A stretch of DNA of 64,000 nt from Blastomussa wellsi. Its lineage: Eukaryota; Cnidaria; Anthozoa; Scleractinia; Plerogyridae. A model generated the notes under the pieces. It had not been told where the DNA came from. It did no database searches and was given only the letters and a program-made list of their open reading frames with translations. A program made the position numbers and the translations under genes. Of the stretch, positions 45,878 through 49,606 are shown piece after piece. Positions within the stretch are counted from its first letter, which is position 1. Every line of letters begins with the position of its first letter. The stretch spans positions 9,844,868 through 9,908,867 of the forward strand of contig OX393562.1 in NCBI GenBank assembly GCA_947652115.1, in the 5' to 3' direction.

Positions 45878-45924
45878 ACACACGAGTAAGATGAGGGTTG
45901 TGGTGCAGGTTTGTGCAGCTGGTT

Positions 45925-46020
45925 GTGAAGGGGTGGTGGGGGTGGAGGGGTGGAGTGGTGGCGAGGGTGGAGGGGTGGCAGGGGTGGAGGGGTGGCAGGG
46001 GTGGAGGAGTGGCGGGTGTC
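45925..46020. repeat. G-rich minisatellite in left TIR
   Basis: Tandem 'ggggtgg' and 'ggtggagg' units, mirrored by the C-rich tract at 49495-49555 in the right TIR. Guanine runs of 4 at short spacing could form G-quadruplexes. Confidence 0.8.
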
Positions 46021-46233
46021 AGCGGGTTGGTAGCTTGAGCGTGCCCAGAACATCAACATGTGTGTCAAACGCACAACAAGCACGTGACCCGCCAAGCGAG
46101 CAAATGTGACACAGAAAATACCCCTTGTTGAAGAAATGCCTGCACTGGATATTATTTTCCAATTGAAGAAATATCCGCACAAGTATATACGCCAAAAAAG
46201 TCTGCCACAAAGTATTTAGGAGAGCGCAAAGTC

Positions 46234-46425
46234 TGCTGGAAGGATTGGAGAGCTCTTGGCAAGTTCTGCACCTTGATGGAAAACAACCCGGCCAACATTG
46301 TCGGCCATATCGATGCAGAGACTGCAGAAAAATGGTTGGACTGGGGACTGGGAGAGCTTTTTGTTGTTGCTTGCCGGGGGAGTTTTGTTTTCTGCACCAA
46401 AGGTGGATTGGTTGTTGCAGTTTGA
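46234..46425 (+). pseudogene. Second element protein, C-terminal domain (5' part deleted)
   Basis: The plus-strand frame CWKDWRALGKFC ... IVGHIDAETAEK ... ELFVVACRG ... GGLVVAV ends at a stop at 46423-46425. It is collinear with the minus-strand domain at 18545-18775. It begins directly at the inner edge of the TIR, so the HTH, coiled-coil and membrane parts seen at 18789-19640 have been deleted here. Confidence 0.55.
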
Positions 46426-46430
46426 CCGGT

Positions 46431-49151
46431 CTACGCTAGGGCAACACGGCGGCCTTTTTTCTTGTTTGGTGTCGTTTTCTCCTCCCCAAGCCAGCAATGC
46501 AATGGGGTTTTTCTTTTTTCCAACGCGTGGAGGCCTCCCATTGCCTCGATCTCTCTTTCCAGAAAGTACCCATGCGTTGGGGTTTCTTCGTCTGTTTTCG
46601 GTTCCCCGTCTTCGCCGAGCGGGAGCAGGAAGAGAATGGTCCGCGGAGAGTTTCGGAAGATTGTCGCTGCGAAACGTTTGGCTATGTACTCTCCTGCCAG
46701 CAAGTGTGTTGTTTTTTCGTGTCTTTGTTTGCTGGCGCAGAAACTTTGGAAAAATTGGTTTTGGCGAGATCTGCGCAGAGTTTGTCGTATACTGCGCATT
46801 TCGCCCCAAGAGCCCGCAAGATTGGGAGTCGACCAGAGTCTGGGGCTTCGAGAACTTGTATTGGGTTCCACACGATTTTTTTTGCCCTCATTGGACTGGA
46901 AGGTTTTCGGGGGTTCGATTTGCAACACCAACCCTCCAAGCTTGTCAACACCGTCGAAAGCCACAAGCCAGAAAAGTTCCCGACCAAAATTGTCTTCCTC
47001 CTTGCGGAAGAAGGCCACGCATTCGCGGAGGATTTTTCGCAGAGCTTTTGTCGCCCAAACAGAAACACACCCCGAAGAACTTGGTTCCTGCAAGACAACC
47101 CGAGATTTCTCTTCTTGCGCGCGGAAACCAAGAACTTTCCATTTTTTGTTTGTGGGCAGCTCCGAGACTTTTTTTGTGTTTTTGCAAGAACGTCAAAGAT
47201 TTTTTTGCGGGTCTCCCAGCTTTTTGTTTTGAATTTTTTCTTTGTCTCGGCGTAGAAACGAAGGGCCTCTATTTCCGCTTGGCGAATCTTTGTGTTTTCT
47301 TCCTCCTTTTTGTGCCAATTTTCTTCTCTTTCCCAGTGGGCTTGTTTCCACTCCTCGGCTGTGCAAGCGAACCGAAGTTCGTCGAGGACTTTCTCTTCGT
47401 TTCTTCTGGAAAGCGCAGGTATTTGCCGCTGTTGGGCGATTTCTGGTATTTCTTCCATTTCGTATTTCGAAGAATCGTTGCCGATGGCGTGGCATTTTTT
47501 GGATCGCCATTCCCACTCGATCTTGTCTGTTGGGGGCAGAAGTGTGGGCAGGTTGCCTCCGTTTGGGTGGAGCTGCGTCGGTTTTTTGTTCGCTACCAGG
47601 ATTGTGCGGGTGTTTTCGTCTTTCTGAAAACAGCGTAGCGGTCCGAGCTCCACCCCTTCGTCATCGGCGGCCAGAATGTCGACCCGGAAAATCAGGCAAG
47701 ACCAGAAGCCGAAGTCCCCTGCTGCCCACTGCACTGCTTTTTCCCACTTGGTTGGGTCCTCAACATTCGCTGGGGTGGGGCGCACGTGGACTCCAAAGAT
47801 CCGGCCAGTTGTTGTGTGGCTGCCCCACGCAACGAAGATGTGGCCTTGTGGTCTGTCCGCGAGAACAAGGCACCTGTCGAGGGTGGTGGCGAGGTTTTTC
47901 CACTGCTTGCTGGGCGGTTGGACCACAAAGAGAGCTTGTTGCTCGTCGTTGACAGAAATCTGCACCAAGACTTTCTCGATGCAGGTGGAAGCTTTCTCGT
48001 TCGATAGTTCGTGGAGTGGGAGGCCATAGAGAGTGGTTTCGATTCGAGTACAACCTCGGGCTTGCACGTCTGGGTGGAAGAATGTTTGGCGGAGCCGCTG
48101 GTTGGGACAGTCGGCGTATTCTGCCAGGTGCCCGCCAACAGGCTCGCGGATTTCTCCTGCCTTGAAATTCGAAACAACTTTGTTGTAGATCTTGTTTCGG
48201 GTGGTTGTGGTTTCTTGTTCTTGCGTGGTCTCGAGCCAGGTGCAGCAGTGCTCCCCGACGCTGGAGGTGTTGTCCAGGAGCAGGGGGGTGGTTTCTCCCA
48301 TTGCGGCGGACAAACTCCCTGCCGTTTCGAATCCAAGGTGGGCTACAAGAGCTTTGCGATCCAAAGTGCCCGAAAAGTCTTGTGTGTAGTCGATGAAGTA
48401 GATATTGTAGCCGAAGCCCCCGACCAGACGATTTGTGAAAACCGGCAGCGCCTGGTGCAATTCTTCCATAGGGACTTGGGAAACGTCGCATTTCACCACG
48501 AAATAGCCGGCGATCTTTTCCCCGGGGGTGTAGACCAAACCAGCTTCTTTTTGCCCTGTGCCAGGTGTTTTTCTCGATTCTCTCGATGGTGGCGCGGATT
48601 GTGCTGTTTTCCGCTTTCCCTTGCCCCACTGTGTGGACGATGCTTGTGGTCTGGCGTTTCCCCAGGGCATTTTCCAAAGCTATTGCGATGTTTGCGACAA
48701 CAGTTTTTGCCGTGCCTTGTGGGCCCTCGATGCAGGAGATTTTCCCTCTCTTGTAGACGCACTGCTCTCCGGCAAGCGGGCGAAACACGTAGAGGTCGTC
48801 GACGAAAGGCGGAAGACCCGCCAATGGCCGAAGGTTCGTGCGGCCTTGGTTCCCTGCAAGATAGTCGACCTTGGCGATGTCGGACAGAAGATTGCTTTCC
48901 CATGCGTTTTTGAGTAGCAGGTGGTAGGCAACAGATTTCTCGCACCGCAGGCCCATACTATCGAAGGTTTGTTTTGTTGCCCCGTTGCCGGAATGTTCGA
49001 ACAGTTGCGAAGACATTTTTTGCATACTTCTGGCAACGTATTTGTTCAAAAGGGGGATTTTGGCAACCTGTTTGATGTTTGTTTTTTGTGCCCTGCTGGC
49101 AAAGCAGCTCTTGTCTGTGGTTTGTGGCAAAAGTGGTCTGGCTTGTGCCAA
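46431..49151 (-). pseudogene. Unrecognised large protein, copy 3 (best preserved)
   Basis: N-terminal part (49151 to about 48570): 'SMGLRCEKSVAYHLLLKNAW', DYLAGNQGRTNLRPLAGLPP, then CIEGPQGTAKTVVANIAIAL, a P-loop-like stretch with A for G in GxxxxGKT. After a frameshift, 48670-46682 gives KIAGYFVVKCDVSQVPMEEL, NIYFIDYTQDFSGTLDRKAL, GHLAEYADCPNQ, 'ARGCTRIETTLYG', LFVVQPPSKQWKNLATTLDR, a coiled-coil-like charged region, then in alternating frames 'VWATKALRKILREC', FWLVAFDGVDKLGGL and SPRTILFLLPLGED to a stop near 46431. About four frame changes in total. No known family was recognised; the IDYTQDF/CTRIETTLY blocks hint at a replication-initiator-like fold, as a guess only. Confidence 0.6.
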
Positions 49152-49199
49152 AAGTGGAAGAAAAAAAGTTGCTGAAAATTTGGTTGCCGAAAAAAAAAA

Positions 49200-49606
49200 T
49201 GCGCTCTCTTAAATAATTTGCGGCAGACATTTTTGGCGTATATACTTGTGCGGATATTTCTTTAATTGGAAAATAATTCTGATGCAAATTTGTTAATATC
49301 CAGTGCAGACATTTCTTCAACAGGGAGTATTTTCTGTGTCACATTCGCTCACTTGGCAGGTCATGCGCTTTTTTTTGTTTGTGTTTGACACACATGTTTT
49401 CACATTCGCTCGCTTGGCGGGTCACGTGCTTGTTGTGCGTTTGACACACATGTTGATGTTCTGGGCACGCACAAGCTACCAACCCGCTGACATCCGCCAC
49501 CACTCCACCCCTGCCACCCCTCCACCCCCCTACCCCCCGCCACCACTCCACCCCTTCGCAACCAGCTGCGCAAAGCTGCGCCACAACCCTCATCTTACTC
49601 GTGTGT
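49200..49606. repeat. Right TIR of the 3.7 kb element
   Basis: Inverse of 45878-46228, including tttggcgtatatacttgtgc, 'tgttaatatccagtgcag', the repeated 'cacattcgctc.cttggc' block and the C-rich tract. An ATG on the minus strand (49230) opens MSAANYLRER, homologous to MAAANY at 22613; the equivalent ATG of the left TIR is mutated. Confidence 0.8.

Follow-up and report, generated by a model that had tools for sequence, protein, structure and literature searches.

Element A and its genes

A stretch of 64,000 nucleotides of the genome of the coral Blastomussa wellsi (assembly GCA_947652115.1, contig OX393562.1, positions 9,844,868 to 9,908,867, forward strand), here called the window, was analysed for a mobile element that an earlier reading of the letters alone (the sequence-only reading) had delimited. 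The element, designated A, is 3.7 kb long and its coordinates, 45878-49606, proved exact. It is bounded by terminal inverted repeats (TIRs) and carries the following features; L numbers denote loci elsewhere in the genome, described below.

45872..45877, no strand: left target-site duplication CAGGGC, adjoining the left end of A
45878..46228, plus strand: left TIR, 351 bp; matches the right TIR in 308 of 326 gap-free columns; 88-90% identical to the TIRs of PolB-type L012 and L014
45925..46016, plus strand: G-rich 8/17-bp tandem repeat within the left TIR
46177..46197, plus strand: 21-bp inner TIR box with TATATA, left TIR; same sequence in the right TIR and at 22613-22633
46222..46425, plus strand: gene 3 fragment, convergent to rep; gene 3 also stands beside rep in seven fetched loci
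46431..49025, minus strand: rep gene, coding for a Rep_trans-like protein of about 860 residues; the start is inferred as the first ATG of the frame
49200..49606, minus strand: right TIR, 407 bp; 89-93% identical to the TIRs of L012 and L014
49231..49251, minus strand: 21-bp inner TIR box, right TIR, identical to the left-TIR box
49607..49612, no strand: right target-site duplication CAGGGC, adjoining the right end of A

The TIRs of several hundred bp and the CAGGGC on both flanks had been noticed from the sequence and were confirmed; the perfect terminal 13-mers noticed with them are part of an identity of the two ends over their outermost 26 bases. The local alignment score between the two TIRs was 228, compared with a maximum of 36.5 among 300 pairs of random stretches of the window. 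The end 20-mer, searched with up to 3 mismatches, had only two sites in the window, which are the ends of A, and two matches were obtained in none of 100 shuffles. The 21-bp box was present with 0-2 mismatches in 7 of 13 TIR slices and with 5-9 in the other 6, including both slices of L017, in a set of which some slices may stop short of the box. A terminal hairpin serving as origin was rejected, with shuffles matching the 60-base ends in 61 of 200 cases on the right and 120 of 200 on the left (19 and 128 of 200 for the complementary strands). A head-to-tail array with a 572-bp period and copies more than 99% identical lies at 42808-45699 and stops some 170 bp short of the left duplication.

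A large frameshifted protein on one strand had been noticed, and was confirmed on the minus strand: residues 14-860 of protein P0001 aligned to 48980-46434 in three frame pieces. Rep of A is thus disrupted, its frame shifting near 48525 and at a point between 46712 and 47243. The second conserved domain noticed on the opposite strand corresponds to gene 3 and is indeed present, but as a fragment only, with a 43-column alignment (46222-46347, plus strand; E 9e-9 in a single comparison) to a minus-strand open reading frame (ORF) beside rep copy B of the window. In A, 5 bp separate the stop codons of rep and gene 3; in copy B these codons overlap. No Polinton gene was recognised in A, as four scanned ORFs gave no Pfam match and no PolB motif was observed, which speaks against part of the earlier interpretation. 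Gene 2, of about 220 residues, was not found in A and within the window occurs beside copy B only. Lacking gene 2 and the second, inverted rep present in L017, A is not the complete element it was taken for.

The large protein and Rep_trans initiators

The large protein had no significant match by sequence in Pfam, NCBIfam or PDB, so that a known transposase or Polinton gene was rejected as its identity. Comparison with PHROGs gave scattered weak matches only, the strongest of which (E 0.0025) was to a family of no assigned function. Phage records, IMG/VR and GTDB contigs contained no relative of rep, and likewise none of gene 2 or of TIR strings; a phage or prokaryotic home for the element was rejected on this ground. 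A P-loop or superfamily 3 helicase, as in parvovirus-like or CRESS Rep proteins, was also rejected, the Walker-like GPQGTAKT of A not being conserved in the family alignment.

Family alignments were built from 142 rep proteins (alignments A1, A2 and A5 with 48, 83 and 77 members, respectively), members being picked by hand for length and intactness and scrambled or short proteins being excluded. The hallmarks of Rep_trans were found in the family, namely three acidic metal ligands, a catalytic Tyr with flanking Lys/Arg, and R-x-E. Two RepDE residues are replaced in the family, Arg140 mostly by Ser, Gln or Cys and Ala144 by Thr. The Rep_trans profile (PF02486) was not among the 25/27 families listed for 48 members (E up to 1). 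Phage B5, which is Rep_1, and a Cf1c ORF, which appears to be H-x-H, were rejected as comparators.

The modelled fold of the rep protein appears TBP-like, and TBP chains scored as high as Rep_trans. Equal scores of this kind would be expected if the protein were a TBP-like DNA-binding domain and no nickase, with the polymerase of a helper replicating the element; this is quite unlikely, since eight residues of the Rep_trans site are almost invariant among the rep proteins, on strands in the same order, and TBP is not known to be a nuclease. From residues and model together, the protein resembles a replication initiator, and most likely it works like Rep_trans without being a member by profile. 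The replication-type protein suggested by the sequence-only reading is borne out to this extent.

With Rep_trans initiators (RepDE, RepSTK1) and MOBT relaxases the protein shares the order of catalytic residues and, in its model, an apparently TBP-like fold; it differs from them in having no sequence-level match, about 860 residues, a long extra half and an animal instead of a bacterial source. Initiators with the Rep_trans fold have been described from bacteria and, according to excerpts of a recent paper (PMC13107129), also archaeal. In the same excerpts, the Rep-Arvir initiators of archaeal viruses (DUF7845) have a TBP-like fold and are linked to Rep_trans by structure only; their surrounding domains are different, and the motif is K-H-Y-Y-M in SNJ2 whereas it is K-x-Y-N-K in the rep family.

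Related copies and shared ends in the genome

The 368-Mb assembly (124 contigs) was searched with rep and with the TIR. For rep, 123 of the 602 candidates were scored and at least 129 matches obtained; for the TIR, 40 of 153 were scored, with at least 61 matches. Some of these matches are pieces of one copy. Twenty genomic stretches were fetched for comparison. The fullest form was L017, an 8043-bp element with the order TIR, rep, gene 3, gene 2, inverted rep, TIR. L015 (5361 bp) has rep, gene 3 and a partial second, inverted rep, and in L024 and L025 the gene order is that of L017 with the second rep shortened, as in copies B and C of the window. It is inferred that A is a shortened and broken copy of the L017-type form.

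Several loci with the same kind of TIR contained no rep, namely L012 (8479 bp), L016 (4509 bp) and an element of about 17 kb spanning L013-L014. Motifs which we take to be those of PolB were observed in L012, L016 and L023, and L014 matched the ORF of L012; this ORF was not recognised by Pfam or PDB. L014 also had a match to the rve integrase (E 2e-4) that is weaker than Pfam's own cut-off, with weak PDB matches to retroviral integrases (E 0.28 and up), and a capsid-like ORF in L013 had a non-significant match only. The 17-kb element also contains a long ORF made up of MAEEQQPTTVTQ-like repeats (L013 8530-9507 and L014 3-1319).

TIR identity was 88-93% between A and L012/L014, 86-89% between A and L016, 89-92% between A and the rep-bearing L015, and 94% between L014 and L015; TIRs therefore do not group by whether an element bears rep or is of the PolB type. 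TIRs of L017 align with the others in part only (86-203 columns). Direct repeats of 5-6 bp abut both ends in all five readable elements (CAGGGC, AAAAT, GATAT, CACTG and AAATAA), the 17-kb element being excluded from this count by its unreadable left end. The TIRs with target-site duplications that the sequence-only reading expected in other copies do exist.

The insertion site of L017 is a PolB-like gene. Aligned to L012, the two flanks of the element run up to 2940 and from 2935; aligned to L014, on the other strand, they run up to 3951 and from 3956. They are continuous in both, so that an uninterrupted site exists and the overlap represents a 6-bp duplication. Compared with L023, the flanks overlap by 3 bp and the left alignment ends 4 bases short. 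This clean insertion, the number of rep matches in the genome and the relatives of the rep protein in other animals are what an independent transposon superfamily would show, inserted by Rep itself and having gained Polinton-like TIRs by conversion or capture. In A and L015 the likeness reaches the extreme ends and takes in most of the TIR, in L017 only part of it, and we know of no tyrosine nickases of this kind that make 5-6-bp duplications; such a superfamily is very unlikely. A was initially read as an independent transposon, and the comparisons of TIRs and flanks led us to abandon that reading.

Two further rep copies and their neighbours were located in the window:

15012..15523, plus strand: Polinton-type sequence flanking copy B, 72-79% nucleotide identity to L012, L014, L016, L022 and L023
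15826..18467, plus strand: rep copy B, broken; about 65% nucleotide identity to A over about 735 bp
18464..18766, minus strand: gene 3 beside copy B
18792..19568, minus strand: gene 2, with weak helix-turn-helix (HTH) matches, a middle region and a hydrophobic helix; its end shifts frame relative to homologues
19642..22191, minus strand: rep copy C, broken and truncated; inverted relative to B and 94% identical to it, and, as B, about 65% identical to A over about 735 bp
22389..22590, minus strand: Polinton-type sequence flanking copy C, 82-87% nucleotide identity to L012, L014, L016, L022 and L023; beside the 22613-22633 TIR box

A tail-to-tail arrangement of gene 3 and rep was found in A, in B and in all seven fetched loci with a visible gene 3 (L005, L006, L015, L017, L020, L024 and L025); for this reason a supposed flipping of genes 2 and 3 between rep copies was dropped. 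Gene 2 had 27 homologues, 11 of them on contigs equal in size to a contig with a rep match. A hydrophobic stretch of 19 residues was present in 27 of 28 aligned sequences, and weak HTH matches were to CENP-B_N in 12 of 28 (best E 0.02) and HTH_7 in 7 of 28 (best E 0.008).

Rep copies are often paired in inverted, convergent orientation at a distance of a few kb, in the genome (18 plus/minus pairs picked by eye), in L015, L017, L024 and L025, and in B and C. Typically a full rep meets gene 3 tail to tail, and the second rep, usually shortened, lies past gene 2. The pairs look as if the TIR grew to include rep, or an inverted dimer was inserted. Just beyond the TIR stretch by copy C is a near-perfect palindrome with a 12-nucleotide loop (22726-22903), resembling a foldback or miniature inverted-repeat transposable element. 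Elsewhere in the window are Gypsy-like ORFs (9648-12688) with reverse transcriptase (RVT), RNase H and H2C2 integrase domain matches, and an ORF at 38528-40294 that matches RVT_1 and, at a borderline level, GIY-YIG, in Penelope-like order.

Relation of element A to Polintons

The closest known systems are Polinton/Maverick elements, together with adintoviruses. A has the same TIRs as Polinton/Maverick-type elements in the genome, the 5-6-bp duplication and a family in which copies are nested in each other, but it is 3.7 kb long and carries rep, and PolB, integrase and capsid genes, the hallmarks of Polintons, were not recognised in it. Judged by gene content, A is not a Polinton. Nor is it a simple deletion derivative, the other option of the sequence-only reading: a plain internal deletion would account for the same ends and the small size, yet rep of A has no match in the PolB-type loci L012, L013-L014, L016 and L023, which makes this origin extremely improbable.

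A self-sufficient Polinton branch, in which rep and genes 2 and 3 replaced the PolB and capsid genes, would agree with the common TIRs and duplications, with the several genes of fuller copies and with the Polinton-type flanks of B and C. It is nevertheless unlikely: the sequence between the TIRs contains no PolB motif in either L015 or L017, and in A, the only one of the three scanned for it, no integrase could be recognised, which would leave insertion unexplained without a helper.

We consider it probable that A is one member of a group of small mobile elements living off resident Polinton/Maverick-type elements: it has their ends and the same kind of duplication, and no recognisable integrase or polymerase of its own. 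The shared TIRs and duplications, and the PolB-type loci with this kind of TIR, support the small relative or parasite of a Polinton-like lineage proposed from the sequence alone. The integrase of a Polinton would recognise the shared ends and insert the rep element in trans, and Rep would nick the element DNA via Tyr277 and so start its copying by a polymerase of the host or of the helper. Gene 2 is predicted to be a membrane-anchored, perhaps DNA-binding accessory, which A would have lost, and gene 3 may be another accessory, kept in A only in part. Polinton capsids might be used as well.

Giant viruses and phages have known satellites, and virophages, transpovirons and other satellites are, as A is proposed to be, small elements exploiting a larger one. 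The present case differs in that the proposed helper is a Polinton-type element in the host chromosome. The evidence leaves evenly balanced the wider proposal of a class of Polinton satellites in animal chromosomes, which would use Polinton ends to engage its integrase and perhaps its capsids, insert into polB and carry the first known eukaryotic branch of TBP-fold Rep_trans nickases. The titles and abstract openings surveyed mentioned neither a eukaryotic Rep_trans branch nor such a satellite, although an unnamed Repbase entry is possible; excerpts of PMC5714925 and PMC6499999 were also considered on novelty.

If this is true, Polintons in animal chromosomes have parasites of their own, and the satellite would offer a test of whether Polintons still move and form particles. 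Duplications and empty sites in the genome could be used for dating their activity, and a large animal rep family would extend the class of Rep_trans-fold enzymes to all three domains of life.
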